From contig NZ_LN898230.1 in assembly GCF_001457835.1 (NCBI RefSeq), forward strand, positions 203,600 through 267,599: a DNA stretch of 64,000 nt, read 5' to 3'. The number at the start of each line of letters is the position of its first letter. Position 1 is the first letter of the stretch. The notes below the pieces were generated by a model, which had not been told where the DNA came from, ran no database searches, and was given only the letters and a program-made list of their open reading frames with translations. The position numbers and the translations under genes are program-made. The stretch is from Fenollaria timonensis. Its GTDB lineage: Bacteria > Bacillota > Clostridia > Tissierellales > Peptoniphilaceae. This document shows positions 4,719-44,611 of the stretch, one piece after another.

Positions 4719-5228
4719 TTTGCAAGACTATTAACAAAAGAGCTTGACGGATACAAAGGCGAAGTTACAGTCTACGGACAAGACTTAAACGAAATATCAG
4801 AAAAGTCCTTGTTTGAAAGCGTTGCAGTAGTGCCACAAGAAGCCATGATATTTAAAGATAGCTTATTTAACAATATCACAATGTATGACAGCTCTATAAA
4901 AGAAGAGAGCGAAGAATATAAAGAGATAATTAAGAAATTAAATCTCGAAGGCTTAGCAAAGAAAGAAAAAGAGGGTACACTTGATGTACTTCAAGCCTCT
5001 GGCGGAGAAAAAGAAAGAATATCCATAGCCAGAGCTATGATTAGAAAACCAAAGATACTTATACTGGACGAGCCAACAACAGGACTTGACCCAGACAATG
5101 CAAGAGAAGTCAAGAAGATAATCACAAACTTAGACGGCGTCTTAAGACTTGTCATAACACACGATTACGACGAAGAATATCTAAAGAAGTTCGATGGCGT
5201 AATATTTATGAATGAAGTTTGTGCTTAA
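4707..5228 (+). pseudogene. ABC transporter ATPase, C-terminal half only (fragment A)
   Basis: The frame runs from the Walker A codons GKSTFARLL to a stop at 5226-5228, about 173 residues. It holds the Q-loop (VVPQEAMIF), signature (ASGGEKERISIARAM), Walker B (ILILDEPTTGLD) and H-loop (RLVITHD). Everything before the Walker A lysine is absent: there is no membrane domain and no GxxGxG. Starts such as TTG at 4809 lack a clear ribosome site. The rest of the gene presumably lies on the other side of the integrative element, left of this window. The ATPase motifs are undamaged, so this is either a cleanly split gene or a silent cassette rather than a decayed one. Confidence 0.85.
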
Positions 5229-5238
5229 TAAATTGATT

Positions 5239-5268
5239 ATAGGTGGAGAGAAATCTTCACCTATTTTA
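5239..5268 (+). terminator. Terminator of ATPase fragment A
   Basis: ATAGGTG and CACCTAT form a stem around a 12-base loop, followed by TTTTATT. The stop codon, spacer and hairpin (about 45 bases) are almost identical to those after fragment B at 14921-14965. Confidence 0.85.
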
Positions 5269-5400: not shown

Positions 5401-7173
5401 TTGAAAAAATATAATGTGAAAAATTACTTGAGTTTATACTTTAAAAGCTTCAAGTATCTTTGGCGTGCGTCTAAAAGCAATGTCTTCGTACTGCTTTTAG
5501 TGATTCCTTTACAAGCTTTGCTGCCATCGATAACTTTGTATATTGCAAATTATTTGATTGACAATGTCTACAGTTTAAGTAATAAAATTTTATACATCGT
5601 TCTTGCTGCATGGGGACTTAGTTTTCTTTTGAATAACGTTTTTGCTCCACTAGTAACATTGGTACAAGGCAAGCTAACAGATGATTTAACATTCAAGCTT
5701 AACTATGACATAATGAAAAAGTCAGAAGAGATAGAGACCATTGATTATTATGAAGATCATAATTTTTATAATGACATTGAAATTCTAAGCTCTGAATCGA
5801 GTTGGAGACCTGTAAATTTATTGGTTTTTGGAACGAGTATCATTTCTAATGCGATACTCTTTGTATCAATGTTATTTATATTCGCTAGCTTTCACGCGCT
5901 CATAGCTTTGGCTATGCTATTTGTATTAGTGCCACAAGCCATCATAGCATATTCATTACAAGCACAAGCCTTTGAAACGCTAGTTTCTAACAGTGAAGAG
6001 TCAAGAAAGCTAGAGTACTATAGTCAAACTTTGCTATCTTCAAAATCTATAAAAGAGGTTAGACTTTATAATCTATATAAATTTTTTATGGATAAATATA
6101 CAGCTTCTTTTAATAAGATTAAGATGGGCGTTAACAAGGAAAGAAAGAAAAAATTTAGAAATTCTCTTTTCTTTTTGATAGTAACAGCTTTGATTAGCGT
6201 TGGAACATTTATCTATATAATCTACTCGATTAGAAAAGGTAGCCTTGGGCTTGGAGCCATAATGCTTTTTGCATCAAGTGTAGTTTATGCGATGAACAGT
6301 ATGTCAAGGTTGATTGAAGATTCGTCACTTCTTTATGACACTTTGTTATATATGGAGAAGTTTTTTAAGTTTAATGAAATAAAAACTGATGTTGAGTGTG
6401 GCAATCTTGAAATGCCAGACGATATAGATAGCATTGAGTTTAAAAATATTAGCTTTACTTATCCCAATGGCGATAAAAAAGCACTTAATAACATTAGTTT
6501 TAGTATAAATAAAGGTGAAAAAATTGCCATAGTTGGTGAGAATGGTGCCGGTAAAACTACTTTGGTAAAATTATTATCAAGATTTTATAAACTTGATGAT
6601 GGCGATATCTTAATCAATGGAGTGCCTATAAGTAATTATAGTTATGAAGCGTATAGAGAGAAGATAGCAGCCATATTTCAAGATTTTGCGAAATTTGATC
6701 TAAGTATAAGAGAAAATATTGTGATATCTGATCTAAATAAAAAAGAAAGTGATGATGAGATTGAGCTTGCTCTTAAGAAAAGTGGCTTTGATAAAGATTT
6801 TACAGCTAATTTAGATAGGGTGCTTGGACAAAGGTTTGAGGACAGCACAGACATATCTGGTGGACAGTGGCAAAGACTTGCTTTAGCAAGAGCTTTTTAT
6901 TCAGGGGTGCCCATACTTATCTTAGATGAGCCGACATCTGCACTTGATGCAAGAATCGAGTACGAGATATTTCAAAAGTTTTTAGAGCTAACAGAAGGGA
7001 AAACTGTATTTTTTATTACACATAGACTAGCAAGTGTGAGACAAGCGGATAGAATACTTGTTTTGAAAGATGGACGAGTTGAAGCCTTTGATAACCATGA
7101 GACCTTGATGAAGAGTGACGCATATTACAGAGAGCTTTATGAGATGCAGTCATCTTTGTATTATAAAGAGTAA
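5401..7173 (+). CDS. ABC exporter, fused membrane and ATPase domains
   Basis: The product has about 590 residues. TTG at 5401 is preferred, since AGGTG lies just upstream; GTG at 5392 overlaps that site. The N-terminal half holds an ABC type-1 exporter membrane domain with hydrophobic segments near residues 25-70, 150-200 and 255-305. The ATPase half has Walker A (GENGAGKTT), Q-loop (AAIFQDF), signature (DISGGQWQRLALARAF), Walker B (ILILDEPTSALD) and H-loop (FFITHRLAS). There is no N-terminal peptidase domain. It would act as a homodimer or heterodimer exporting a peptide or lipid-like substrate. Being next to ATPase fragments and a RiPP locus, peptide export or self-immunity is the likely role (inference). 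Confidence 0.9.
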   Translation: MKKYNVKNYLSLYFKSFKYLWRASKSNVFVLLLVIPLQALLPSITLYIANYLIDNVYSLSNKILYIVLAAWGLSFLLNNVFAPLVTLVQGKLTDDLTFKLNYDIMKKSEEIETIDYYEDHNFYNDIEILSSESSWRPVNLLVFGTSIISNAILFVSMLFIFASFHALIALAMLFVLVPQAIIAYSLQAQAFETLVSNSEESRKLEYYSQTLLSSKSIKEVRLYNLYKFFMDKYTASFNKIKMGVNKERKKKFRNSLFFLIVTALISVGTFIYIIYSIRKGSLGLGAIMLFASSVVYAMNSMSRLIEDSSLLYDTLLYMEKFFKFNEIKTDVECGNLEMPDDIDSIEFKNISFTYPNGDKKALNNISFSINKGEKIAIVGENGAGKTTLVKLLSRFYKLDDGDILINGVPISNYSYEAYREKIAAIFQDFAKFDLSIRENIVISDLNKKESDDEIELALKKSGFDKDFTANLDRVLGQRFEDSTDISGGQWQRLALARAFYSGVPILILDEPTSALDARIEYEIFQKFLELTEGKTVFFITHRLASVRQADRILVLKDGRVEAFDNHETLMKSDAYYRELYEMQSSLYYKE

Positions 7174-7179
7174 TTAATT

Positions 7180-7209
7180 TAGCCTAAGGAAATATATTTC
7201 CTTAGGCTT
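7180..7209 (+). terminator. Terminator after the ABC exporter, left copy of a 30-bp duplicated palindrome
   Basis: AGCCTAAGGAAA pairs with TTTCCTTAGGCT. The same 30 bases occur again at 8791-8820, on the other side of the IS1182 element, so this copy is also the left target duplication. The T-run now lies only after the right copy, and this copy is followed by the IS end. Confidence 0.85.
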
Positions 7210-8678
7210 CAGAGTGAAGACAAACCCAGGAATTTTTTCCTGGGTTTGCTTATTTTTATTAAATTTAGTAAAAAATCAAATTTTTTATGTATTTTTGCAA
7301 ATAAACGAGTAAATACCTCCTTATTTGGATCCATCCTATACATCATTAGTGCTAGTTTTTTCATATTTAAGCATGCAAAAGTAAGCGCAGCTTTCATATC
7401 CATCTTAGCTTTGCCCTTCATGTTTGTATATCTAAAACTATGATACTCTTTTGCGCTTCCAAATTGTCTTTCTATTGTTTCTTTTCTTCTTGCGTATTCT
7501 TTCTTGCCTTGATTTGTATATCTATATTCTTCTGTTATGTCAAGGTAGTCTTGCCATATATGTCTTGTTATTACTTTTTGTTTGTTTTTACTATGTGTGC
7601 ATCTATCTATGTTAGGACAGTTCTTGCAGTCGTTTATATCACTTTTATACTGTCTGTATCCTTCTCTATCTGTAGTTTTGTAATTTAAAAGTTTTCCTTG
7701 TGGACATATGTAGCAGTCATAATATTCGTCGTATATGTAGTCTCTTTTGTAGTATGGATTTTCTATTTGTAAGTTTCTCTTTTGTCTTGTATATGGAAAT
7801 ACTGGGAGTATTTTATCGTCTATTAATGTTTTTGCTATGGCTGGTATTTTGTAACCTGCATCCATAACTATCTTTTGGGGTTTCATCTTTTTTAGTTTTT
7901 CTTCATAGAATGGTAAAAATGTTGTGCTGTCATGTAAATTTCCTGGAAATGATTTGTATGCTAGTATCCAGCCGTTTTTATCGCATGATGTTTCTACGCA
8001 ATAGGCGAATACTTCTTTATGTTCTCCTTTGTGAAAGAGGCCGCTTTCTGGATCTGTTGTTGACTGAACTATCGTTTGCCTCTCTTTATCTTCTTTCTCT
8101 TTTAAGGGCTTTTTTCCGTTTTCTTCTCTTTCTTGTGCTATTTCTTTGTCTAGCTGTGCTTGATATCTTCTTGCTTTTTTCTCTATTGTTACTTTTTTGT
8201 TTTTATGTCTGTTTGCATGTGCTTTAACATGTGTTGAGTCTACGAATTGAATCTTCTCATCCACAAAACCTTGTTCTAGTGCTTGGTTTAATATGTTTTG
8301 GAAGATGTTTTCAAATATGTCTGTATCTTTGAATCTTCTTCTATAGTTTTGGCTGAATGTTGTAAAGTGTGGAATCTTGTCGTAGAAGTCATATCCTAAA
8401 AACCATCTGTATGCAATGTTTACTTCTATCTCTTTTATTGTTTGCCTTATGCTTCTTATGTTGAATAGGTATTGTATGAATATTATCTTCATTAGCACTA
8501 CTGGATCTATGCTTGGTCTTCCGTTATCTAATGAGTATTTATCTTCTACTAAATCATAGATAAAGTCAAAGTCTATATACTTATTGATCTTTCTTAGTAT
8601 GTGTTCTTGTGGAACTAATTCTTCAACTGAAATTATTTGTGCTTGATCTGTTTTTGATTTACTATTTTTATGTAACAT
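7209..8678 (-). CDS. IS1182-family transposase
   Basis: The product has 489 residues and is intact. The start (MLHKNSKSK) follows GAAGGTGATAAA on the minus strand. It has the N-terminal DUF772-type domain (VPQEHILRKINKYIDFDFIY, DNGRPSIDPVVLMK), a DDE core with VDSTHVKAHAN and VMDAGYKIP for the two aspartates and TIERQFGSAKE for the glutamate, plus a cysteine cluster (CYICPQGK, CKNCPNIDRC) typical of this family. The stop codon uses the final bases of the IS together with one base of the target. Confidence 0.93.
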   Translation of the reverse strand: MLHKNSKSKTDQAQIISVEELVPQEHILRKINKYIDFDFIYDLVEDKYSLDNGRPSIDPVVLMKIIFIQYLFNIRSIRQTIKEIEVNIAYRWFLGYDFYDKIPHFTTFSQNYRRRFKDTDIFENIFQNILNQALEQGFVDEKIQFVDSTHVKAHANRHKNKKVTIEKKARRYQAQLDKEIAQEREENGKKPLKEKEDKERQTIVQSTTDPESGLFHKGEHKEVFAYCVETSCDKNGWILAYKSFPGNLHDSTTFLPFYEEKLKKMKPQKIVMDAGYKIPAIAKTLIDDKILPVFPYTRQKRNLQIENPYYKRDYIYDEYYDCYICPQGKLLNYKTTDREGYRQYKSDINDCKNCPNIDRCTHSKNKQKVITRHIWQDYLDITEEYRYTNQGKKEYARRKETIERQFGSAKEYHSFRYTNMKGKAKMDMKAALTFACLNMKKLALMMYRMDPNKEVFTRLFAKIHKKFDFLLNLIKISKPRKKFLGLSSL

Positions 8679-8790
8679 TTTATCACCTTCTATGTATTAT
8701 ATATACCCAATAGATGTGTATTTTAAGAGGTTTTCAAGTAAAAAAGTAGGCGTATTTTTATAAAAATACGCCTACTTTGTCAACAGTCTG
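7210..8790 (-). mobile_element. IS1182-family element inserted at a terminator palindrome
   Basis: A 1581-bp element holds one transposase gene on the minus strand. The ends match: CAGAGTGAAGACAAA at the left, and CAGACTGTTGACAAA at the right read on the opposite strand. Both outer flanks are the same 30-bp palindrome (7180-7209 and 8791-8820). Inside each end is a strong hairpin (AAACCCAGGAA with TTCCTGGGTTT; AGTAGGCGTATTT with AAATACGCCTACT) that would isolate the transposase from outside transcription. From memory, members of this family favour palindromes and leave long, variable duplications. Confidence 0.85.
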
Positions 8791-8820
8791 TAGCCTAAGG
8801 AAATATATTTCCTTAGGCTT
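8791..8820 (+). terminator. Right copy of the duplicated terminator palindrome
   Basis: This is identical to 7180-7209 and is followed by a TTTTTT run, so it is the functional original terminator of the ABC exporter operon, now 1.6 kb away from it. Confidence 0.85.
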
Positions 8821-9005
8821 TTTTATCTTCGCTTTTGTGTTTTTATATTTAAGAAAACTATTTACTCAAAAACACTGCCTTTGTCCTGGGTATAATTTAT
8901 ATGAGTCATGTGTAGCTCCGTGTAGTTGTATTTTTGGTGCTAACTTTATTATACAATCTTCCTATTTTTATTACTATAATAAGATTAAAAACATTATAAA
9001 ATGTA
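8821..9005. other. AT-rich spacer before the RiPP locus
   Basis: I see no convincing gene here. Open frames lack ribosome sites and resemble no family. The spacer separates the terminator copy from the promoter at 9006. Confidence 0.5.
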
Positions 9006-9034
9006 TTGACACTTTTTATTTATAGTTATATAAT
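9006..9034 (+). promoter_or_regulatory. Strong promoter of the radical SAM operon
   Basis: A consensus TTGACA is followed after exactly 17 bases by a consensus TATAAT. The start codon of the maturase lies 39 bases further on. Confidence 0.85.
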
Positions 9035-9072
9035 GTAATCAAAGTTACTATTTATTGAATGGAGGGATTCCT

Positions 9073-10389
9073 ATGAAATGGACTATTTTTAAAATTGAAG
9101 ATTATAAATATAATTCTATATTACTTTTAAACACATTTAATGAGGCATTAATCGAACTTAGTGAAGAAGAAAAAGAAGATGTTGAAGAAAGTATTAAAAA
9201 TAACACATCAAATGAAAATTTAAAAGTTTTAGTTAATGAAGGTTTTTTAGTAGATGACAATTTAGATGAAAAAGAGATATTTATTGATAATTTAAAAACT
9301 GAGATTAATAACGATTATAATTTTATTTTACATATTTTACCGACTACCGCATGTAATTTTAAATGTTCATATTGTTATCAAGATGGGATTGAAAGGCAAC
9401 ACTTTTTATCAGTAAATGACATAAAGATAATAGGTGAAGAAATAAATTTATACTTAAAGAAATATGTAAACATACGCAATTTAAAATTAATCATTCACGG
9501 CGGAGAGCCTACTATGAATTGGAAAATTGTTCCATTTATGATGAATTATTTACAACATATATGTAATAATAACAATGTAAAATTAATGACGTCTATTGTC
9601 AGCAATGGCTACGAGTTAACTTCAGAGAAAATAGAGTTTTTAAAATTCTTTGATTGGTACAGGTTTCAGGTAACATTGGACGGCATAAAAGAAGTACATG
9701 ATTCAAGGCGAATGTTAAAAAATGGCGCTGGAACTTTTGATAGGATAATACAAAACATAGAGTATATTATGAAAAATGATATATTGGATAAAATTGATTT
9801 AAGAATTAATTATGATAAATCTAATTACGATCAAGTTCCTTTGTTTTTGAAATATTTATCAAATAAAGATTACAGAAAAAAATTAAATATTTCTTTAGGC
9901 TATATAACACAAACGGTTAATAGCAATGCTCACGAATACATGAAAAAAGAGCAATTCAATACAAAAGAACAGATTAATTGTCATTATGAATTGTATTCAA
10001 TTGCGACGTCGCTTGGTTTAAATGTAAGTGATAAATTTGTTTATGGTTCGCTTTGCACAAGCAAGTTGAAACATAGTTATATTATATCGCCTGATGGATT
10101 TTTGCACAAGTGCCTGAGCATGGTAGGCAGGGACAAAGGAATTGTTGATAATTGGAGAAATAATAAAAATTGTTTTAATAATTATAGTATGCTTAAATAT
10201 AAATTATATGATAAATGTTTTGAAAAAAATTGTCCACTTATACCTTATTGTCATACAGATTGTAGATTTGATAGTTTAATTAAATATAATGACGTTTATA
10301 AGGTTTTTTGTAGAAAAGATGAACTTTTGGAATTGAACAAAAGACTCATGAGGAAAAAATATGAAAACGAGTGTAGAAAATCAAAATAA
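9073..10389 (+). CDS. Radical SAM-SPASM peptide maturase
   Basis: The product has 438 residues. ATG at 9073 is chosen because GGAGGG lies 6 bases upstream; the TTG at 9055 would place that site inside the gene. Residues 1-85 form an N-terminal extension of the kind that recognises peptide leaders. The radical SAM cluster is C94-x3-C98-x2-C101 (TTACNFKCSYCYQDG), followed by the HGGEPT motif near residues 142-147. The C-terminal SPASM region has cysteines at about 328, 347, 382, 387, 393, 397 and 413 for auxiliary iron-sulfur clusters. SPASM maturases install thioether, C-C or epimer modifications on ribosomal peptides. The ABC exporter overlaps its end, and a 30-residue peptide follows. Confidence 0.92.
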   Translation: MKWTIFKIEDYKYNSILLLNTFNEALIELSEEEKEDVEESIKNNTSNENLKVLVNEGFLVDDNLDEKEIFIDNLKTEINNDYNFILHILPTTACNFKCSYCYQDGIERQHFLSVNDIKIIGEEINLYLKKYVNIRNLKLIIHGGEPTMNWKIVPFMMNYLQHICNNNNVKLMTSIVSNGYELTSEKIEFLKFFDWYRFQVTLDGIKEVHDSRRMLKNGAGTFDRIIQNIEYIMKNDILDKIDLRINYDKSNYDQVPLFLKYLSNKDYRKKLNISLGYITQTVNSNAHEYMKKEQFNTKEQINCHYELYSIATSLGLNVSDKFVYGSLCTSKLKHSYIISPDGFLHKCLSMVGRDKGIVDNWRNNKNCFNNYSMLKYKLYDKCFEKNCPLIPYCHTDCRFDSLIKYNDVYKVFCRKDELLELNKRLMRKKYENECRKSK

Positions 10390-11956
10390 ACTTATTAAAT
10401 ATTTATATTACATATTTCAAAGCATAAATATGCTCATATCACTAGTGCTGCCAATATTTATAAAAAGGATAGTCGATGCAGTGAGCGATAAAAATTATGC
10501 TTTATTCAAACTTAATGCAATAATATTTGCAATTCTGATATTAGCTTTCATTTGCACACTAGCACTTTCGTATTACTTTATGATTTATTATGAAGAGAAG
10601 GAATTAAGATGGCTTAGGAGTAAATTTTATAAGTACCTTGGCTTTGAAAGTTTAAACAATTTAAAGAACAAATCTTTAGGATCTATTATACAGCTTTTCA
10701 ATTCAGACCTTGAAGGCATCAGAAGCTTTATACTTGAAATACCATACAAGAGAATAGTTAAAGCGATATATTTAGTTTTAATTATAATACTTATGCTTAG
10801 AGAAAATATTTATCTGAGCGCATCTATACTTATAATACTACCAATATTTTACTTCATACAAAACAAGATGAGCGAGAAAGAAGCTGTAGTTAACAAGGGT
10901 ATAGAAGAAGCAAATGAAAAGCTTAATAGTAATATCGAAGAGTTTTATAATTATAATTACACGATAAAAGCCTTTAATTCAAGTGAAGATACAATTATAA
11001 AAAATGAAGCGGGTTTGGATAAATATCTCGAAAAAGTTTTTGAAAGACTAAAGATTGATATAGTTTATGACTATTTTATGTCAAATGGCCTTTTAAATAT
11101 ACTTGACCTAATCATATACATCTTCGGTGGCTTTTTAGTTTTTAAAGGCTCAGTCAGCATAGGAACTTTGATCTTATTTAGTCAATACGTATCAAAGCTA
11201 TGGAATCCAATTGAGTTTTACATGTCATATCCAAGAGAGAAGTCCTTATATGAAATGCACAAAGGAAGGTTAGAGAGCATTCTTAACTTTGAGAGTAAAT
11301 TTATAGACGAGGATGCAAAAGATTTTGAAAGCCTAGAGCTAAAAGATTTATCCATCGAATACAATGAACTTATTTTAGATAAGATTAATTTAGAGATAAA
11401 AAAGGGTGAGAAGATACTGATAAAGGGAAGCAATGGTTCAGGTAAGACAAGCCTTCTAAGAACTATATCAGGCCTTGAGACTGATTATAGTGGAGAAATA
11501 CTTTTAAATGGCAGCGAGGTAAATAAAGAATCAAATCTATTAAACAAGATGATAAGACTAGTACCAGACAAGGCAGATATATTCTACGGAACTATAGAAG
11601 AAAATATCAATATGTTTTCAAATAAAAGTATTGATAAAGATACAAAAATAATTAAAGCCTTAGGGAAAAATAATCTTAGCTTAGATACAGTTCTTGCATC
11701 AAGCATGAACAATCTATCTGGTGGAGAGAAGAAACTTATTGAGCTTGAAAGAGCATTTCAAAGCACAGGAGAAGTATTTATCTTTGATGAGCCGCTTAAT
11801 TATATAGATAAAAATAATTCAGACTTAGTTATAGATTGCATCAAAGATTTTACAAAAGATAAAACAGTAATTTTAGTATCACACAATGAGAGCATAGAAA
11901 AAATTGCTGATAAAGTCTATGAGATAAAGAACAAAAAATTGATTAGAATTAAATAG
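10361..11956 (+). CDS. ABC exporter of the RiPP locus
   Basis: The product has 531 residues. Its ATG lies 29 bases inside the maturase gene behind GAGGA, so translation is coupled. The N-terminal membrane domain has hydrophobic stretches near residues 20-75, 130-165 and 245-280. The ATPase shows Walker A (GSNGSGKTS), signature (LSGGEKKLIELERAF), Walker B (VFIFDEPLNYID) and H-loop (LVSHNES). It has no peptidase C39 domain, so any leader removal needs another protease. The Walker A codons (GGT TCA GGT AAG ACA) are the kind of site at which the two ATPase fragments in this window begin. Confidence 0.9.
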   Translation: MKTSVENQNKLIKYLYYIFQSINMLISLVLPIFIKRIVDAVSDKNYALFKLNAIIFAILILAFICTLALSYYFMIYYEEKELRWLRSKFYKYLGFESLNNLKNKSLGSIIQLFNSDLEGIRSFILEIPYKRIVKAIYLVLIIILMLRENIYLSASILIILPIFYFIQNKMSEKEAVVNKGIEEANEKLNSNIEEFYNYNYTIKAFNSSEDTIIKNEAGLDKYLEKVFERLKIDIVYDYFMSNGLLNILDLIIYIFGGFLVFKGSVSIGTLILFSQYVSKLWNPIEFYMSYPREKSLYEMHKGRLESILNFESKFIDEDAKDFESLELKDLSIEYNELILDKINLEIKKGEKILIKGSNGSGKTSLLRTISGLETDYSGEILLNGSEVNKESNLLNKMIRLVPDKADIFYGTIEENINMFSNKSIDKDTKIIKALGKNNLSLDTVLASSMNNLSGGEKKLIELERAFQSTGEVFIFDEPLNYIDKNNSDLVIDCIKDFTKDKTVILVSHNESIEKIADKVYEIKNKKLIRIK

Positions 11957-11978
11957 ATTAGTTAAGGAGGTGAATGCA

Positions 11979-12071
11979 ATGAAAGTTATTAGACACGGAA
12001 ACAAGAATGTAAGTATAATTATGAAAGGAGGTTCTACGAGCAAAGATTCTTGTTGTGGCGGCAGAGGTTAA
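11979..12071 (+). CDS. 30-residue candidate RiPP precursor ending SCCGGRG
   Basis: An ATG 8 bases after AAGGAGG opens a 30-codon frame. The peptide starts MKVIRHGNKNVSIIM, continues KGGSTSKD and ends SCCGGRG, with cysteines at 25 and 26. It lies 22 bases after the exporter and is followed by a large hairpin, so it completes a maturase-exporter-peptide operon. The charged N-terminal part would be the leader, and the short Gly/Ser/Cys tail the core. Neither the mature product nor the modification can be read from sequence. An in-frame GTG at 11970 overlaps the ribosome site and is unlikely to be the start. I do not recognise the peptide family. Confidence 0.72.
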   Translation: MKVIRHGNKNVSIIMKGGSTSKDSCCGGRG

Positions 12072-12086
12072 ATAATTTAATAAAAT

Positions 12087-12137
12087 ATACTATATAATGT
12101 ATTAAATTAAAAAATTTAATGCATTATATAGTATTTT
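12087..12137 (+). terminator. Long hairpin after the RiPP peptide
   Basis: A 22-bp stem (ATACTATATAATGTATTAAATT at 12087-12108 with its complement at 12113-12134, one G-U pair) has a 4-base loop and is followed by TTTA. It closes the RiPP operon. The stem is almost all A-T, so it may also act as an mRNA-stabilising element. Confidence 0.65.
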
Positions 12138-12277
12138 AGATTAGGCAAATAGTGCATGTCCCTTTAATAAATAAAATTTTAAAGAAGACACATTTTAAAA
12201 ATTCTGTACCATATTATAAGACTTTATGTCAGACATTTGAAAGACTTATTATTAAAAGTCTCAGGCTGATGACAAAG

Positions 12278-12308
12278 CAGGCATATTTTAAAAAATATGC
12301 CTGTTTTT
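12278..12308 (+). terminator. Rho-independent terminator
   Basis: CAGGCATATTTT pairs with AAAATATGCCTG and is followed by TTTTTG. There is no gene between it and the previous hairpin; the 12138-12277 stretch holds nothing I can support, so the gene it once served may be lost. Confidence 0.75.
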
Positions 12309-12377
12309 GTATTAGAAAACCCCCAGTTAGTGATATGTACCCTCTTTACTGGACAAACCAGTAAGGAGGGTATTTTT

Positions 12378-12927
12378 ATGCGATATAGTTATGAATTCAA
12401 AAAAGAATGCGTAGAACTATACAAACAAGGAAAGTGGATGGAACCACCAGAAGGAGTTACACAAGAAGCTTTCAGGAAAAAAATTAGGTATTGGGTCAGA
12501 CTTGTAGACTTTCATGGAGAAGAGATACTAAAACACAAAGAGCAGGATAAAAAGTGGACTGCAGAAGAAAAATTTAAATGGATATCAAAAGTATTAGTAG
12601 GAAATTCATATAAGTCTGTAGCTATAGAGGCTGGCATTTCAAGTGGTCAACTTTACAATTGGGTTAATAAATATAAAAAATTTTGGGTATAATTCTCTTG
12701 AAATTAAGAAGAGAGGAAGACCATCTAAAATGAATGATAAGGATGAAAACACTAATATAGAGCCAAAGCCACTTAACGAATCCGAACGAGAAGAACTTAT
12801 TCGTTTAAGAGAAGAAGTCAGATATTTAAAAACAGAGCGAGCAGTCGAAAAAAAATTAGACGCCTTGAGAAGGGAAAAATATGCTGCATATCTCAAGGCG
12901 AAAAAGCAGCAGTCATCAGAGAATTAA
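12378..12927 (+). pseudogene. IS3 OrfA (helix-turn-helix protein), frameshifted
   Basis: From ATG 12378 (behind AAGGAGGG) the frame encodes an IS150-type OrfA: MRYSYEFKKECVELYKQGKW, then the second HTH (SYKSVAIEAGISSGQLYNWV). It stops early at 12692 after NKYKKFWV. The expected continuation (FGYNSLEIKKRGRPSKMND, with a Leu-rich coiled coil EELIRLREEVRYLKTERAV) is in another frame and runs to 12927. The frames meet at a run of six A followed by four T near 12674-12683. One A fewer would restore a normal OrfA of about 182 residues. This is a one-base insertion unless the run is slippery. Confidence 0.82.
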
Positions 12928-12965
12928 GAAATGAAGGCCACATACTAAAAGACCTTTTAAGTGCT

Positions 12966-13766
12966 ATGAACCTACCTAAATCAACATACTACTACGAATT
13001 AAGTAAAGTTGACCAAGTTGATCTAAGAAACAAAGAAATCAAAGAAAAGATACAAGAAATATTTACCTCAAACAAAGGTAGATACGGAGTAAGAAGAGTG
13101 CATCAAGCACTTTTAAGTAAAGGATATATAGTTAACCACAAAAGAGTTCAAAGACTTATGCACAATATGCAGCTTCTAGGTAAGAGACCAAAAGAAAAGT
13201 ATCATTCATATATGGGTAAAGTTGGTAAAGTAGCTGATAACATCATAAACAGAGACTTCACATCAACAAAGCCATGTGCTAAGTGGACTACAGATGTATC
13301 TCAATTTAACTTCTCGTGGGGTAAATGCTACCTATCGCCAATATTAGATATGTACACAAACGAAATCATCTCATACGACTTATCTTTACACCCAAACCTA
13401 GAGCAAGTATCAAGAATGCTTAATAGAGCATTTGAAAAGTTTCCATGCGTAGAAGGCTTAATCATGCACTCAGACCAAGGCTGGCAATATCAAAACAGCT
13501 ACTACATCAAAGAATTAGAAAAACATAAAATAACTCAGTCAATGTCAAGAAAAGGAAACTGCTACGATAACTGCATAATGGAAACATTCTTTGGAAGACT
13601 AAAAACAGAGATGTATTATGGATGTGAAAGAGAGTTTAAAACATTTGAAGAGTTTTCAAAAGCAATTGATGAATATATATACTACTATAATAACGAAAGG
13701 ATTCAGAAGAAAACAAAATGGATGCCACCTACTTTGTATAGGTTAGCATCCATGAATGTAAACTAA
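12966..13766 (+). CDS. IS3-family transposase OrfB (DDE catalytic subunit)
   Basis: The product has 266 residues from ATG 12966. The same frame extends upstream (KAAVIRELRNEGHILKDLL), so in the active element it would be made as an OrfAB fusion by frameshifting near 12900. It carries the HTH_21 region (GRYGVRRVHQALLSKGY) and the rve DDE core: WTTDVSQF (Asp), MHSDQGWQYQ (Asp) and RKGNCYDNCIMETFFGRLK (Glu). The catalytic residues are intact. Without a functional OrfA the copy is probably unable to move by itself. Confidence 0.9.
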   Translation: MNLPKSTYYYELSKVDQVDLRNKEIKEKIQEIFTSNKGRYGVRRVHQALLSKGYIVNHKRVQRLMHNMQLLGKRPKEKYHSYMGKVGKVADNIINRDFTSTKPCAKWTTDVSQFNFSWGKCYLSPILDMYTNEIISYDLSLHPNLEQVSRMLNRAFEKFPCVEGLIMHSDQGWQYQNSYYIKELEKHKITQSMSRKGNCYDNCIMETFFGRLKTEMYYGCEREFKTFEEFSKAIDEYIYYYNNERIQKKTKWMPPTLYRLASMNVN

Positions 13767-13876
13767 ATATTAATGTGTCCAGTTTTCTGGGTACACATCA
13801 GTTAGACTGGGGGTTCAGTTTAGCTTTAGCGGTGATAAACAAACAAAAAACCTCCCTGTTTGATATAATATAATTG

Positions 13877-14490
13877 TAATCTGTCAATTGCAATATAAAA
13901 ATCAAAAAAGGGAGGAATTAAAAATGTCATTGAATGACACACATAGTTTATCACATACAAAATGGAATTGCAAATATTACATAGTGTTTGCTCCTAAATA
14001 TAGAAGGAAAGAATTTTATGGCGGAAAAAGACTTGAAATAGGACAAATTTTAAGAGAATTGTGTAGTTGGAAAGAAGTAAACATAATAGAGGCAGAAGTT
14101 TGCCCGGATCATGTACACATGTTGGTAGAAATACCACCAAAATTAGCTATATCAAGTTTCATGGGATTTTTGAAAGGAAAAAGCAGTATAATGATTTATG
14201 AAAAATGGGGCAATTTAAAATATAAATACAGAGGACGTCAATTTTGGTGTCGAGGCTATTATGTAGATACAGCAGGAAAAAATACAAAAATCATACAAGA
14301 ATATATACAAAATCAATTGAAACAAGACCAGCTTAGTGAACAGCTGACATTTGATACAATAGACCCTTTTAAAGGGTAGCTAGTATAATTTGCAAGTGAC
14401 AGATTAACCAACGTCCTTGAGGCGCGGCTAGTAATACAGGCCCTTTGGGCCGCATGAGAAAAACCCCCGGCTAGGCCGGAGGATATTTAT
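13877..14490 (+). mobile_element. IS200/IS605-type element (approximate ends)
   Basis: A single Y1 transposase gene is bracketed by an inverted 17-base pair, TAATCTGTCAATTGCAA (13877-13893) and its near complement at 14390-14406. The right flank contains GC-rich hairpins (GGCCCTTTGGGCC, and CCCCCGGC with GGCCGGAGG near 14464-14482), the subterminal structures that such transposases recognise. These elements make no target duplication, so exact ends cannot be fixed; the left end may reach back to about 13830. Confidence 0.7.
13924..14379 (+). CDS. tnpA: IS200/IS605 Y1 transposase TnpA
   Basis: The product has 151 residues. ATG at 13924 follows GGGAGGAATTAAAA; the frame is open 12 codons further upstream without a site. 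It has the HUH motif (CPDHVHMLVEIPP) and the catalytic tyrosine region (FWCRGYYVDTAGKN). It cuts single-stranded DNA at hairpin ends during replication. Length and motifs are full, and there is no tnpB partner. Confidence 0.92.
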   Translation: MSLNDTHSLSHTKWNCKYYIVFAPKYRRKEFYGGKRLEIGQILRELCSWKEVNIIEAEVCPDHVHMLVEIPPKLAISSFMGFLKGKSSIMIYEKWGNLKYKYRGRQFWCRGYYVDTAGKNTKIIQEYIQNQLKQDQLSEQLTFDTIDPFKG

Positions 14491-14496
14491 TATTAT

Positions 14497-14526
14497 CAAT
14501 TACTTGACATTTTAGGGCAAAACAAC
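14497..14526. other. Second Walker A junction, match to 4689-4718
   Basis: CTTGACATTTTAGGG passes into GGC AAA ACA ACT of a truncated ATPase. As at 4689-4718, the codon before the glycine is TAG. The two junctions share CAATT, one variable base, then CTTGACATT, one variable base, then TAGGG. The IS200-type right end lies within a few tens of bases upstream. I infer a second scar of the same recombination process. Confidence 0.6.
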
Positions 14527-14923
14527 TATAGTCGAGGCAATACTTAATTATAATAAGAGATACAAAGGCAAGATATATATTAACGGTGAAGAACTAAAAG
14601 ACCTTTCATACTCAGACATAGTTTATATACCAGCAGATTACTTGATATCAAAGTTTGGAGTGCTTGAGGACAAAGCTAAGATGTCGTCAGGACAAAGAAA
14701 GAAGGCTCAATTTGATCTATCACTGCTAACAGATAAGAGCGTGTATATAATCGACGAGCCAACAAATTTCTTAGACCTTGAGAATAAAGAAGCAATTGCA
14801 AGGCTTATATCTGATCTACATGATAAAGGAAAGATAATTATAATGATTACACATGATAAAGACATTATGAATAAATTAAATAATGTAGAGACTATATATT
14901 TAGAAAGAAAAGTTGTAGCTTAA
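14516..14923 (+). pseudogene. ABC ATPase, C-terminal half only (fragment B)
   Basis: The frame starts at the Walker A codons GKTTIVEAIL and ends at 14923, about 135 residues. It has a signature-like MSSGQRKKAQFDL, Walker B (VYIIDEPTNFLD) and H-loop (IIMITHD). It is shorter than fragment A and quite different in sequence, yet its 3' end (GCTTAATAAATTRATTATAG) and terminator are nearly the same. No matching membrane-domain half exists elsewhere in the window. Start codons such as TTG at 14642 have no clear ribosome site. It is either half of a split gene or a silent cassette. Confidence 0.82.
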
Positions 14924-14933
14924 TAAATTAATT

Positions 14934-14965
14934 ATAGGTGGAGAGAAATCTTCACCTATTTTTAT
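14934..14965 (+). terminator. Terminator of ATPase fragment B
   Basis: ATAGGTG and CACCTAT form the stem, followed by TTTTT. It is near-identical, with its flank, to the terminator at 5239-5268. Confidence 0.85.
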
Positions 14966-15000
14966 ATCTTAATGGGTACATATATAAAAGAGGTGATTAT

Positions 15001-25147: not shown

Positions 25148-26725
25148 TTACAATCTAATAACTTCGTCAAATTTATTTAGTGTTTCCTCATCACTTGTAT
25201 GAGTTATAACTATTACTATCTTGCCACTTATTTTGAATATTAATTCGAAAATGATTTTGCTTGTTTCTCTGTCTAAGTTTGATGTTGGTTCATCAAAAAT
25301 AAGGACATCATAATCTTTTACTAGAAATCTAAGTATATCTATCCTTTGCTTTTCACCAGTTGAAACTAAATTTCTGCTGCCATCTTCAATATTTTTATTT
25401 AGAAAGTCTCCAGTAAATTTTAGTTGATCATATAAGCCTTGTTGAACTTTTAAGTTTCTATACAGTTCAATATTATCTTTTATAGTTCCATCCACATAGA
25501 AATCATTTCTTTGTATATAAGCAATTTTATTGAATAGACTTTCTGTATCAATCTTATTAATGTTTGTTTCGTTTATTAAAACTTCTCCACTGTATGAACT
25601 GGATGGGTAATACTTCATAATTAGTTTTACTAGTGTTGACTTACCTCTACCAGATTCGCCAACTATAGCATACTTTTTATTGCTTTCAAAATTAACATTA
25701 TAATTGTCAAATATATGCTTATCTTTAAAATCCATGCTTAAGTTTTTAATGGCTATGCTATTAACATTATCGTTTAGCTTTATGTCAAGGCTTTCTTCAT
25801 TATCTGTAGCCATTATATCTTCAAAGTTTTTAACGATATCTTTAACTGTACCCATTAGATTTTTGTTTTGAGCAAATTCTTGAACTGGACTAAAAACTCC
25901 ATTCAATAAGTTTATAGAAGATATTAAGAGACCTACTGTTAAATTTCCTTGTAAAACAAACCAGATGCCTATAGACATACAGGCAAGTTGAGCAAAGAAG
26001 CTGAAAAATATTCCCAAAGTATTTGCAAAACGAGAGGCAAACATGTACTCTAGTCTTACGTTTTCAAAATCATTATCTTTTTTCTTGAAGATATTTTGAA
26101 AAATATTAAATAGATTAAGTAGCTTTATTTGCTCAAATCCTGATAAATTATTATTTATAAGCTTTAGATTATCTGCATTTCTTTCTGAAAACTTAACAGT
26201 TTTCTTTGCCATAATTACACCAGGTAGCTGTGATAAAATAATTGTTACTAAAGTAACTGCTAAAAAAGAAAGACCAAGTTTCCAATTAATAAAAAATATA
26301 GTACCTACACTTACAATTGCACTTATAATGTTTGAAACAATATCGCACTTTGGTCCTAAGTAGTTATCATTATAAAAATCAATGTTTTTAGTTAGATTAT
26401 TCAAATAATACTCATTGGATACACTCATATAGTCTGATATTTCCTTCTTTCCTATTGAGTTGTATAGATGCATTTTTAGATCTTTTATTACATCAGATGC
26501 GTATTTACTTTTAACATAACTAAAGATACTAGAAAGAACAAACCATAGAAAAATAATAAGAATACAAGATAAAATTTTATCTTTAAGTGAGCTATTTTTA
26601 TTAACAACTACGTCAATAACTTTGCCGAGTCTTATGGCAAACACAGAAAATAAAAACGATGTTAAAATACTTAATATTATTGTTAGTAAATATTTAAAAC
26701 TATGTTTTTTTAGAATTTGATTCAT
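25148..26725 (-). CDS. ABC exporter under a C9-tract promoter
   Basis: The product has about 525 residues. ATG at 26725 follows AAAGGAGTGATATCT; an upstream GTG overlaps that site. The membrane domain (spans near residues 15-35, 50-75, 130-175, 245-280) is fused to an ATPase with Walker A (GESGRGKST), Q-loop (AYIQRNDFY), Walker B (VLIFDEPTSNLD) and H-loop (VITHTSD). The signature reads VSTGEKQRIDI instead of LSGGQ, a weaker form typical of one partner of asymmetric dimers. Its C-terminus (NKFDEVIRL) resembles that of ATPase fragment A. The substrate is unknown. Confidence 0.88.
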   Translation of the reverse strand: MNQILKKHSFKYLLTIILSILTSFLFSVFAIRLGKVIDVVVNKNSSLKDKILSCILIIFLWFVLSSIFSYVKSKYASDVIKDLKMHLYNSIGKKEISDYMSVSNEYYLNNLTKNIDFYNDNYLGPKCDIVSNIISAIVSVGTIFFINWKLGLSFLAVTLVTIILSQLPGVIMAKKTVKFSERNADNLKLINNNLSGFEQIKLLNLFNIFQNIFKKKDNDFENVRLEYMFASRFANTLGIFFSFFAQLACMSIGIWFVLQGNLTVGLLISSINLLNGVFSPVQEFAQNKNLMGTVKDIVKNFEDIMATDNEESLDIKLNDNVNSIAIKNLSMDFKDKHIFDNYNVNFESNKKYAIVGESGRGKSTLVKLIMKYYPSSSYSGEVLINETNINKIDTESLFNKIAYIQRNDFYVDGTIKDNIELYRNLKVQQGLYDQLKFTGDFLNKNIEDGSRNLVSTGEKQRIDILRFLVKDYDVLIFDEPTSNLDRETSKIIFELIFKISGKIVIVITHTSDEETLNKFDEVIRL

Positions 26726-26739
26726 AGATATCACTCCTT

Positions 26740-26780
26740 TGTTATATTATATCATTTTATGGGGGGGGGTTGCAATATAA
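26740..26780 (-). promoter_or_regulatory. Promoter with a nine-C tract in its spacer (phase-variation candidate)
   Basis: On the minus strand TTGCAA is followed by nine C (plus strand G9 at 26761-26769), ATAAAATGA, then TATAAT: a spacer of 18 bases. Loss of one C would give the optimal 17. The tract is the longest G or C run I see in this AT-rich window. Confidence 0.65.
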
Positions 26781-26840
26781 TTTTTATATTATTTTAATAT
26801 TTTTTTATTTTGGGTAATAATATAAAAAGGGGGAGATATT

Positions 26841-27086
26841 ATGTACTCAATTATAGTTGGAGCCTTATCTGGTTGGATAGCTTCATTAATTATGAAAACA
26901 GATGCACAAATGGGTTGGATCAAGAACATTCTTGCTGGTATCGTAGGCGGCGGCATAGGCAAATGGATTGCGAAGCTTGCTGGCTTCGAAGCAAAGGGCG
27001 GCATGATCAACGACATCATAGTTGGTATTGTCGGCGCAGTTGTACTGATCTGGTTAGTTAATATGATTTTTGGAAGAAAAAGATAA
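26841..27086 (+). CDS. GlsB/YeaQ/YmgE-family small membrane protein
   Basis: The product has 81 residues with three hydrophobic, glycine-rich helices ([58 protein letters not shown]), the hallmark of this stress-associated family. GGGGGAG precedes the ATG. It is transcribed away from the C9-tract exporter and ends with its own terminator. Its molecular role is not known. Confidence 0.88.
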
Positions 27087-27106
27087 ATATTTAATTAGAT
27101 GAAGAA

Positions 27107-27137
27107 ACTCTTGGGCAATGGCTCAAGAGTTTTTTTG
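27107..27137 (+). terminator. Terminator after the GlsB-like gene
   Basis: AACTCTTGGGC and a GCTCAAGAGTT arm form a stem followed by TTTTTT. Confidence 0.85.
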
Positions 27138-27274
27138 TATGCTATATTATGCTGAGTGTCATTTAATAAATATAAAAAGCAAGTAGATATATTGTTTTTG
27201 AAAAAAAATGTGCTATAATGTATTTATCATAATGTGTATTAATATGCAAAAGAATATATATATAGGAGGCAAAT

Positions 27275-28834
27275 ATGATAAGAGATAAATACAAAAAGAA
27301 TTTTTTTAAGATTTTATTACTATTTTTAACAGGAATAATCGTAGGTAGTTTAAGTATATTTCCTATGGTATTCATTCAAAAGGTGATAGACTACTTAACA
27401 TTGGGTGTGCAAAGTGAATTTATAAAATATATAATACTTTATTCGCTAGTATATATTTTTGTAAATATGTTTAAGATAGCCCTAGTCAATTTTGGTTCAA
27501 AATTTGAATTGAATTTGAATAGAGACATAAAGGATGAAATTGTAGAAAGTATACTTAGTACAAAGATTGATCAGCTTGAACAAGCTGGACGCAGTAATGT
27601 CTTTAATGTTATTATCGACGATTTAAAAGCGCTTGACGATAAACTTATACCGCTAATATTTGACCTAGGCTTTTCAATATCAAGCTTTATAATTGGGTCT
27701 ATCATAATTATTAAGTACGACTACATCATGCTATTTGCGATGATTATCATATCTGCCATATCAACACTAGTGATTCAAAAAATCTTGGCAAGTTCAGAGA
27801 CAGCATCTGAAAAGAGCCAAATACAAAGGCTTAATGTAATTAATAAATTTTTCGACATCATTGTTGGCGCGAGAGACATAAAGCTATTTAATAAAGAGAA
27901 AGTATTTACAAGCGAGTTTCACGAAGAGAATCATGAATTAACTAAGCTTGATAAAAAAATTGTAAATATCAAAAATGTTTCTCAAGCACTTGTAAGTTTA
28001 TTGTTCAACCTGATTATGGCGACTCTAATTTTTATTGGGGGTATGCGTGTTAGTCAAGGCAGTCTCTCTGTCGGAGCACTAATCGCCATCATATTATATG
28101 CATCGATGATTACCGATCCAATTTTTAATATCATAGAAAATCAAAAAGAAATATCTGCTTTTAAAAACTCAGTTAAGAGAATAGACGAGACTTTCAAAAA
28201 TATAGAGAGAGAAAATATCGATTTAATCGAAGACTTTAAGAAAATCGAATTTAAGAACGTTTCACTAAAATATGGAGATAATCAGATCTTGAAGGATTTT
28301 AATTTGCTCATAAATAAAAATGATAAATTAAAGATTAACGGCAGAACTGGTTCGGGTAAGTCGACCATTGCAAAGCTAATTACTAATATGTATAAGCCGA
28401 CTTCTGGTCATGTTTGTGTCGATGGCAAAGAAAATCAAATGATATCTTTATCAGCAGTTTTTCAAGAGAATAAATTATTTAACATGTCAATCATTGATAA
28501 TATCACATTCAAGTCCAAAGTAGATGATGACAAGCTTAATAAAATCATTAAGATATGTAGACTAGATGAAGTTATTGAAAAATATGGCTTAAACAATATT
28601 GGTTTTGATAGCAGCACTCTATCTGGCGGCGAAAAGACGAGAGTACTATTAGCAAGAGCCTTATACAAGGACTGCGAACTATATATCTTTGACGAGATAA
28701 GCACGGGACTTGACGAGACGCTCTTTTATGAGATATTTGATGACACTATGAAATATTTAGCAGCTAAAACAATCATCACTATCGACCATAAATACATTGA
28801 CGAAAAGTATTTTACAAAGAGCATTGCTATATAA
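27275..28834 (+). CDS. ABC exporter, fused membrane and ATPase domains
   Basis: The product has 519 residues, with TAGGAGG before the ATG. About six membrane spans lead into an ATPase with Walker A (GRTGSGKSTIAK), Q-loop (SAVFQENKLF), signature (LSGGEKTRVLLARAL), Walker B (LYIFDEISTGLD, with Ile in place of Pro after the catalytic Glu) and H-loop (ITIDHKY). It lacks a peptidase domain. It is a sibling of the exporter at 25148 but not its operon partner. A TTGTTT-TATAAT pair about 80 bases upstream is the likely promoter. The substrate is unknown. Confidence 0.88.
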   Translation: MIRDKYKKNFFKILLLFLTGIIVGSLSIFPMVFIQKVIDYLTLGVQSEFIKYIILYSLVYIFVNMFKIALVNFGSKFELNLNRDIKDEIVESILSTKIDQLEQAGRSNVFNVIIDDLKALDDKLIPLIFDLGFSISSFIIGSIIIIKYDYIMLFAMIIISAISTLVIQKILASSETASEKSQIQRLNVINKFFDIIVGARDIKLFNKEKVFTSEFHEENHELTKLDKKIVNIKNVSQALVSLLFNLIMATLIFIGGMRVSQGSLSVGALIAIILYASMITDPIFNIIENQKEISAFKNSVKRIDETFKNIERENIDLIEDFKKIEFKNVSLKYGDNQILKDFNLLINKNDKLKINGRTGSGKSTIAKLITNMYKPTSGHVCVDGKENQMISLSAVFQENKLFNMSIIDNITFKSKVDDDKLNKIIKICRLDEVIEKYGLNNIGFDSSTLSGGEKTRVLLARALYKDCELYIFDEISTGLDETLFYEIFDDTMKYLAAKTIITIDHKYIDEKYFTKSIAI

Positions 28835-43107: not shown

Positions 43108-43123
43108 AGCGTATATAAATTAT

Positions 43124-44607
43124 GGCTCTATGTCAAATATTGGGGAGACTTATTGATTTAAGTCTCTCTTTTTATGTTAAAACTAACATTTGCACGTTTT
43201 TAATTTATATACTTAAAATAACACAAATTTATGTAATTTTTGCATGACTAATAAACCTATATAGGCTTATTAGGTTTTTATGATGTTTTATATATATATT
43301 TTAGTCTAAAAGCATTATTCTTTTTCTGAACCTCTCGAAGTTTCTCATACCAAAGCTGTTTCTTTTTAGTGTCTTTATCTTTGTATGTTTTCCTTCTAGT
43401 GCTCCATTTGAATGTTTGTAGTCAAATGAGTTTGTAATTTCATCAGACCAGTTTGTAAAGGCTGTTATACATGATTTAAACTCTTTAAGTTTTGATTTTT
43501 TACATATGTCTATCCATGCGTTTACCTTGTATTGTGCTTGTTCTTTGTTTTTCTGCACTAGAACTTCTTGATAGAAGGATTCTTTTAAGCCATATGCTAG
43601 TCTTAGCTCTTCGCTTATCTCTAGCATTAGAGCTGCTTCTCGCTTTTGATCATCATTAAGTTTTGGCATTGGTTTTGTAAGTATGCTTTTACTTCTTTTT
43701 AGGTATATTCTCATTTCTGCTGATGTATCTTTTTGTATTCTCTTTCTTACGTTTTCTAAGCTCCAAGAGACTTGTCTTACGAAGTGATATTTGTCTGCTA
43801 TGTGTACTGCGTTTTTAAAGTATGCGTTTTTAACGTTTTTAAATGTTTTTGACATATCGCTAACAAATATCTTTACATTTTCTCTTTCTTCTTTTGGTAT
43901 GTTTTTAAAGTATTCAAACAAAATATTTTCTTGCCTACTTTTAACTATGTCTATGATTTCATGTGTTATGCCATCTAGAAGTGAGCATTGATACTTGTAT
44001 GAACCGCTGTCGCCTTTAAACTCGTCTATTAAAAGTACTTTTGGAAGACTTTTTCTCTCTACTGATAGGTAAGATAGGACTCTTGTAACTGTTGATGTGC
44101 TTACTGAGTATCTTCTTGATATTGACTTTATTGAGTAAAGTTCTCTAAACTCTCTAGCTATGGATGCTACTAGTCTTTTTGTCATGGTCATTTTCTTTGC
44201 TACTAGTTCTGTTTTGCTATCAATTCTTTTCCCGCAGCACTTACAGTTGTACCTAGTTTTTCTTAGGTTTATTATGCATTTTTTACCATGCATCTGTGTA
44301 TCTTTTATCTTTTGAGTTCTGTGATCATGAACCCAGATATGTTTAGAACCACAGTATGGGCAGCTTTTTAACTTTTTTGTCTGTGCTTCTATAACTACTA
44401 CATTTTCACCTTCTTTAAAATTGTTAACAACTACATCTTTACAAGCTAGCAAATTTATGGTATTATATTCTTGCACTTGTACACACCTCCTATGTTGTAG
44501 TGGTATTTTAAGTATAGGATAAAATGTGTGCAAGTGCAACTTTTTTTTGTAATTTTATCAAAAAAATATCTATTGAGGTTTTACTCCCCAATAGATATTA
44601 TACAGCC
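43124..44607 (-). mobile_element. ISL3-family element with an 8-bp target duplication
   Basis: A 1484-bp element has ends GGCTCTATGTC with ATTGGGGAG at the left, and GGCTGTATAAT with ATTGGGGAG at the right on the opposite strand. TAAATTAT is duplicated exactly at 43116-43123 and 44608-44615. An 8-bp duplication and GGCT ends are typical for ISL3. The right duplication contains the stop codon of the tryptophanase gene, so that gene stays intact. Confidence 0.92.
43301..44476 (-). CDS. ISL3-family transposase
   Basis: The product has about 391 residues. GTG at 44476 is 9 bases after AGGAGG, and the longer frame has no site. Two zinc-finger-like pairs stand at the N-terminus (CPYCGSKH; CKCCGKR), followed by an HTH (SIKSISRRYSVSTSTVTRVL) and the DDE core of the ISL3 family (LLIDEFKG; IFVSDMSKTFKN; and a C-terminal GALEGKHTKIKTLKR with Glu). 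The frame is intact, so it may be active. Confidence 0.92.
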   Translation of the reverse strand: MQEYNTINLLACKDVVVNNFKEGENVVVIEAQTKKLKSCPYCGSKHIWVHDHRTQKIKDTQMHGKKCIINLRKTRYNCKCCGKRIDSKTELVAKKMTMTKRLVASIAREFRELYSIKSISRRYSVSTSTVTRVLSYLSVERKSLPKVLLIDEFKGDSGSYKYQCSLLDGITHEIIDIVKSRQENILFEYFKNIPKEERENVKIFVSDMSKTFKNVKNAYFKNAVHIADKYHFVRQVSWSLENVRKRIQKDTSAEMRIYLKRSKSILTKPMPKLNDDQKREAALMLEISEELRLAYGLKESFYQEVLVQKNKEQAQYKVNAWIDICKKSKLKEFKSCITAFTNWSDEITNSFDYKHSNGALEGKHTKIKTLKRNSFGMRNFERFRKRIMLLD

Positions 44608-44611
44608 TAAA

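Follow-up and report, generated by a model that had tools for sequence, protein, structure and literature searches.

SPASM enzymes form several kinds of bond, and the annotated maturases closest to the enzyme considered here belong to four families: TIGR04463, NF038107 (CefB), TIGR04280 (geopeptide) and TIGR04334 (Clo7bot). This enzyme is encoded in a 64,000-nucleotide stretch of Fenollaria timonensis DNA (contig NZ_LN898230.1, positions 203,600 to 267,599; hereafter the window), in an operon with an ATP-binding cassette (ABC) exporter and a 30-residue peptide. It falls in a five-member clade whose members score 134-209 bits against these families, below the cut-offs of 400-600 bits; its precursor differs from those of the four families in being shorter and in having a single CxxR tail at the end. 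The start of the leader, MK[VI]I, is like that of several distant relatives, whose precursors begin with MK[FIV]I or MK[FIV]L. We consider the locus to be probably one for a ribosomally synthesized and post-translationally modified peptide (RiPP), belonging to a small, apparently undescribed CxxR subfamily of radical S-adenosylmethionine (SAM)-SPASM RiPPs and matured by the mechanism proposed below.

Very short precursors, named by core motif and associated with one radical SAM enzyme, also characterize the streptococcal RaS-RiPPs, which comprise 16 motif groups (PMC13361665). As far as the available part of that paper goes, CxxR is not among the 16 groups, and the clade is set apart from the CGG, CGx and GRC groups by motif names only; the letters CGG do occur in the window tail, the CGG group being known here only by its motif name. 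In the open-access literature, the matches listed held no paper on these tails or on CxxR RiPPs and no relevant use of the names CefB, Clo7bot, geopeptide or TIGR04463; it is against this literature that the subfamily is judged apparently undescribed.

The maturase clade and its precursor peptides

The maturase gene (9073-10389, plus strand; 438 aa) matches Pfam Radical_SAM (E 1.1e-15) and carries the radical SAM motif CxxxCxxC as CNFKCSYC. Its C-terminal region holds the seven cysteines of a SPASM domain (C328, C347, C382, C387, C393, C397 and C413), all seven of which are kept in a Sarcina homologue; the Pfam search returned no separate SPASM match. None of the best 25 of 47 NCBIfam families (E up to 1) reached its cut-off. 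The best match was TIGR04463 (188.3 bits against a cut-off of 525; 152.6-197.9 in the other clade members), and the scores were 171.2 bits for NF038107 (cut-off 600; best clade member 209.2), 141.8 bits for TIGR04280 (cut-off 400; best in the clade 186.5) and 137.1 bits for TIGR04334 (cut-off 600). The closest solved structure is 5wgg, which we take to be CteB (profile E 6.9e-25, fold E 6.2e-16). Its title names thioether bond formation in sactipeptide biosynthesis, and the window enzyme resembles the sactipeptide and ranthipeptide maturases by profile and by fold. It differs from them in its low score with the SCIFF model TIGR03974 (70.8 bits against a cut-off of 425) and in the absence of a six-cysteine precursor at the window locus. 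The structure model, with a mean predicted local distance difference test (pLDDT) score of 62.7 and residues 1-79 below 50, is too weak for statements about the active site.

The closest maturases are found at four loci: L034 on a plasmid of Sarcina sp. JB2 (35% identical to the window enzyme), L046 in a Bacilli metagenome-assembled genome (MAG; 40%), L047 in a Clostridiales MAG (38%, sequence incomplete) and L066 in genome G1295 (36%). In a tree of 37 enzymes, these four and the window enzyme form one clade (support 100/98), within which the window pairs with L046 and L047 with L066. Searches of 41 genomes and of 130 family, 249 order, 391 class and 398 phylum genomes, sets that overlap in part and were searched at different E-value limits, returned the window's own enzyme as the only clade member; both sister species lack a clade maturase (best matches E 4.4e-11 and 5.9e-11). 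L046 and L047 are two of the six confirmed loci of one search, the other four (three Prevotella, one Clostridium) being more distant, and L066 came from a search of 248 genomes in which two matched, the second being L047's own genome. Further searches around clade members (1/249, 1/3, 1/13 and 1/264) recovered only the member used as the centre. A single-sequence maturase scan of genome contigs gave 13 pattern matches, none of them confirmed; three scans of viral contigs with maturase alignments likewise confirmed none, and 65 phage records contained a maturase match, the best at 28% identity.

The peptide gene of the window (11979-12071, plus strand) encodes MKVIRHGNKNVSIIMKGGSTSKDSCCGGRG, and its ATG is preceded by the ribosome site AAGGAGGTG. 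Counterparts stand beside all four homologous maturases. In each of these loci, a frame of 20-31 residues with its own ribosome site lies directly upstream of the maturase, 58-177 bases ahead of it, so that a small precursor gene is present at five of five clade loci: MKIIRKARKTHSIIRGSVMFSKDSCCPARSR (L046:5848-5943), MKVIKVKTTPVIGGQDPCCPARA (L047:5809-5880), MKIIAKKNKNSIVEKKLNIGGQDPCCGGRA (L066:4767-4859) and, on the minus strand, MIILNEKKPLVLIDKCPARA (L034:6304-6366). The window tail, SKDSCCGGRG, compares with SKDSCCPARSR, GGQDPCCPARA, GGQDPCCGGRA and IDKCPARA in the four counterparts. Alignment of the five precursors left M1, C26 and R29 invariant. Four of them share the start MK[VI]I and four the tail [KQ]D[SP]CC(PA|GG)R[AGS], with DKCPARA in the fifth, and the conserved C-terminal core of the window peptide is approximately DSCCGGRG (12047-12068, plus strand). 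A search of 7,243 small frames, drawn from 67 sources with some overlap, for C(PA|GG)R no more than two residues from the C-terminus gave nine rows at five distinct places, all of them these precursors.

Because this tail pattern was chosen after the peptides had been seen, it was complemented by a motif-blind test. The highest score of the window peptide among the 72 frames of L046 was with the candidate there (66), and likewise among the 92 frames of L066 (63), so that two of the four loci ranked their candidate first; the best scores of 200 shuffled window peptides had a mean of 29.4 and a maximum of 48. The L047 peptide scored 59 with L066 and 49 with L046. The pairing of precursor and maturase is regarded with great confidence.

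These results agree with much of an earlier, sequence-only reading of the window, which had described the CxxxCxxC motif and seven SPASM-region cysteines and the 30-codon peptide with a ribosome site it called perfect. Its precursor call is upheld by the conserved counterparts and the motif-blind scores, and it survived the check named at the time as able to overturn it, a small frame unconserved beside homologous maturases. That reading had matched SCCGGRG to no class; no class found here matches it either, but the letters prove to be one form of the conserved C(PA|GG)R tail. The gene order it took as typical stands as far as a RiPP precursor accompanies a SPASM maturase, and not in its arrangement, since the other four clade loci place the peptide directly upstream of the maturase.

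Several features of the precursor genes vary among loci. A terminator-like hairpin separates precursor and maturase in L047 and L066; the terminator scan found none there in L046 or L034, and hairpins seen by eye after the precursors of these two loci were not reported by it. The L066 precursor gene is oddly rich in G+C, at 54%; its maturase has 45% and the stretch as a whole 37%. A DNA pattern for the precursor gave no match in viral contigs; among the loci compared it picks up L047, L066 and their duplicates, and it cannot match L046 because the serine codon there is AGT.

Other relatives were observed along the way. Sarcina sp. JB2 plasmid p1 (L038, record 75870-78882) bears a degraded second copy, with the precursor start fused to the maturase end and an unannotated ABC exporter frame behind it. 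The window's own genome encodes a second maturase relative (L032, G000:C7:154901-156061; 32% identical), beside which no precursor was recognised among the frames listed. At L061 (G991:C76:34000-43000; maturase match E 2.2e-73), two SPASM-type maturases are adjacent and a 43-residue frame contains KVIRTGHK and SCCRK; this locus would be a distant relative, outside the clade on long branches of the 37-enzyme tree, and is only a lead. On the minus strand of L028 (G084), tandem 35-residue frames, MRIIRRPSKPEDTILDCGVGGVTNCCPGTSPVRGK and MKIIRRPSKLEFGMACPTGGVRNCCPGSGPIQEGD, lie ahead of a maturase relative.

Proposed chemistry of the CxxR tail

In the proposed mechanism, the N-terminal part of the maturase would hold the precursor leader, radical SAM chemistry would take a hydrogen near the peptide C-terminus, at the CxxR tail, and the auxiliary Fe-S cluster of the SPASM domain would bind the conserved cysteine. 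This would yield a Cys-centred thioether in the final few residues, which would plausibly close a four-residue ring from C26 to R29. An unlinked protease would then cut off the leader, and the small product would be secreted by the ABC exporter, which in the window would be a resident gene, typical of the genus, that has come to sit between the other two. We lean towards a Cys-centred crosslink at the precursor C-terminus, and a thioether is favoured because 5wgg, the closest solved relative, concerns thioether formation. Arginine as the crosslink partner is a guess prompted by the invariance of R29 and is rather doubtful. A secreted antibacterial product, as opposed to a signal or a cofactor, seems slightly the better assumption.

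Alternatively, the cysteines would stay thiols and the maturase would make a C-C bond, an epimer or a change at the arginine, giving a metal- or thiol-active tail peptide. The range of bonds made by SPASM enzymes would accommodate this, the evidence here being sequence, as would the variable number of cysteines (CC in four precursors, C in one). Set against it are the invariance of one cysteine across the precursors and the link of 5wgg, the nearest solved enzyme, to thioether formation; the thiol product is considered unlikely.

A number of points weigh against the overall assignment. The family has only five members, two of them from MAGs, and no residues but M1, C26 and R29 are shared by every precursor. 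The C(PA|GG)R pattern was picked once the family was in view. The motif-blind test failed to recover the L034 peptide, placing another frame on top with a score of 29; the case for this peptide therefore depends on its motif, its position and its ribosome site. In comparison with the window peptide, that of L047 took second place (30 against 35). Because residues 1-79 of the maturase are so poorly modelled, the idea that they hold the leader is a guess, and the chemistry of the peptide is a prediction from sequence.

Operon layout and the origin of the exporter

The operon opens with a promoter at 9006-9034 on the plus strand (TTGACA, 17 nt, TATAAT) that agrees with the consensus at 12 of 12 bases. 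The region 8600-12500 holds 33 promoter-like sites, of which this is the best; shuffled DNA averages 27.0 sites. The exporter gene (10361-11956, plus strand; 531 aa) encodes a membrane domain and an ATPase (Pfam ABC_membrane and ABC_tran) and overlaps the maturase gene by 29 bases (10361-10389), and the precursor begins 22 bases past the exporter stop. Pfam found no peptidase in the exporter, which is therefore not a C39 peptidase exporter; its alignment to bacteriocin transporters of 730-750 residues starts at their residue 209-229, past the N-terminal domain. A hairpin 3' of the precursor (12087-12134, plus strand) has a folding energy of -24.5 kcal/mol, where shuffled sequences average -7.55 (z = -7.2). 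It is nearly all A-U and is absent from the terminator-like sites reported by the terminator scan of 8600-12500. No Rfam match was found in 7000-15000. Consensus promoter, 29-base overlap and an exporter without peptidase had all been noted in the sequence-only reading and are confirmed; the strong hairpin it described is real in energy, with the caveat that it is A-U rich and outside the rule of the scan.

The three genes are flanked by an IS1182-type element (transposase 7209-8678) and an IS3-type element (12297-13766 region), insertion sequence (IS) labels taken from similar annotated plasmid elements. G+C content is 25.7% in the maturase and 28.8% in the exporter, against 35.5% in the whole window. 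Identical 30-base palindromes (7180-7209 and 8791-8820) bracket the IS1182-type transposase gene.

By descent, the exporter is not a dedicated RiPP transporter, which corrects the picture given by the gene order. In the two sister species, whose genomes were the others of the genus examined, the exporter gene stands alone, with no maturase or peptide. DNA identity is 90.6% over 1,592 columns and 88.7% over 1,596; the homology sets in near the fourth codon and ends a few bases beyond the stop, spanning window positions 10372-11963 (11965 in the second species). In the sister species, the neighbours are an Fe-S protein gene on one side and a 420-residue gene on the opposite strand on the other; in one of them, an 11 of 12 promoter-like site lies just upstream of the exporter and a terminator-like hairpin just downstream. 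Neither the maturase side nor the peptide side of the operon matched the sister-species stretches better than E 0.039.

The old exporter site is still present in the window's own genome (G000:C8:114,600-118,250; L078/L079), with both the upstream and the downstream neighbours. A different ABC exporter frame (114750-116531) occupies the exporter's place; of the original exporter roughly the last 45 bases are left, with its terminator, and behind them comes a transposase sharing 99.8% identity with window 43113-44614. In the operon, the last four maturase codons and the stop (10372-10389, plus strand) lie on DNA whose homologue in the sister species is exporter sequence. The maturase end, NECRKSK, is read partly from exporter DNA and is missing from the three full-length homologues in the alignment, as a junction would give; the 29-base overlap thus looks like the junction of a captured exporter. 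These sequence comparisons are most simply explained by the move of a resident exporter gene to a place between the maturase and the precursor. Both sister species may instead have lost maturase and peptide with no exporter capture, which would require precise losses flanking the exporter on both sides.

Whether the exporter has anything to do with the peptide is a separate matter. Its solitary position in both sister species and the abundance of insertion sequences in the region would allow it to be unrelated, placed there by rearrangement only. Against this, it lies within the operon, sharing 29 bases with the maturase and ending 22 bases ahead of the precursor, and an exporter partner recurs, since at the Sarcina locus, too, the gene directly behind the maturase encodes an ABC exporter (32% identical to that of the window). 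An unrelated exporter is considered unlikely, to about the same degree as the thiol product. A scan of viral contigs with the exporter alignment gave seven distant ABC matches.

Other ABC genes were noted nearby. Behind an IS200/IS605-type element, window 14516-14923 retains the 3' part of an ABC exporter gene, of which both sister species have an intact version (492 aa). A 53-base direct repeat (5215-5267 and 14910-14962, 92% identical) follows two different ABC genes; with copies near sister-species ABC genes, it is a possible recombination handle. Two ABC exporter-like frames, so named by eye, diverge within 25148-28834, and an 81-residue frame (26841-27086) lies between them.

The ribosome as a possible target, and implications

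Directly behind the maturase in L046 (7316-8851) and L066 (6351-7907) lies an ABC-F ATPase gene, starting 17 bases past the maturase end in L046 (7299 to 7316) and 14 bases in L066 (6337 to 6351, with the ribosome site GGGGGTG). The two proteins are 42% identical. This link suggests, from sequence, a product that acts on ribosomes: the ABC-F protein would give self-protection in these two loci, and the exporter would serve the window and the Sarcina plasmid. In its favour, besides the close spacing, both proteins score best to NF000355, a ribosomal protection-like family absent from the window operon (279 and 293 bits). Neither reaches the cut-off of 380 bits, however, the solved structures that best match the L066 protein include regulators (YheS, EttA, Uup) as well as resistance factors, and no ABC-F gene was noticed beside the window genes or on the Sarcina plasmid. 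The L047 sequence is N from 7155 to 13152, so genes behind its maturase could not be scored. A ribosomal target is thus tentative and somewhat less probable than either the thiol product or the unrelated exporter. The full combination, a new ultrashort CxxR-crosslink RiPP class that attacks the ribosome, guarded by ABC-F or exporter, with the window operon built by capture of a host exporter, is improbable as a whole. A thrS gene beside L046 was considered as a resistance copy and dropped; its place after what we take to be dnaB/dnaI-like genes resembles what is presumably the usual gene order.

That the 30-codon frame is no gene at all can be set aside with little hesitation: A+T-rich DNA commonly holds short frames, but this one has conserved counterparts, a strong ribosome site and scores above 200 of 200 shuffles.

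Five natural variants of a precursor with a very small core bring the bond formed by these maturases within reach of a direct test, and the ABC-F link points to a candidate target. An exporter beside a maturase need not be a dedicated one, and the history of the window exporter shows a possible route by which a RiPP operon forms around a resident transporter.

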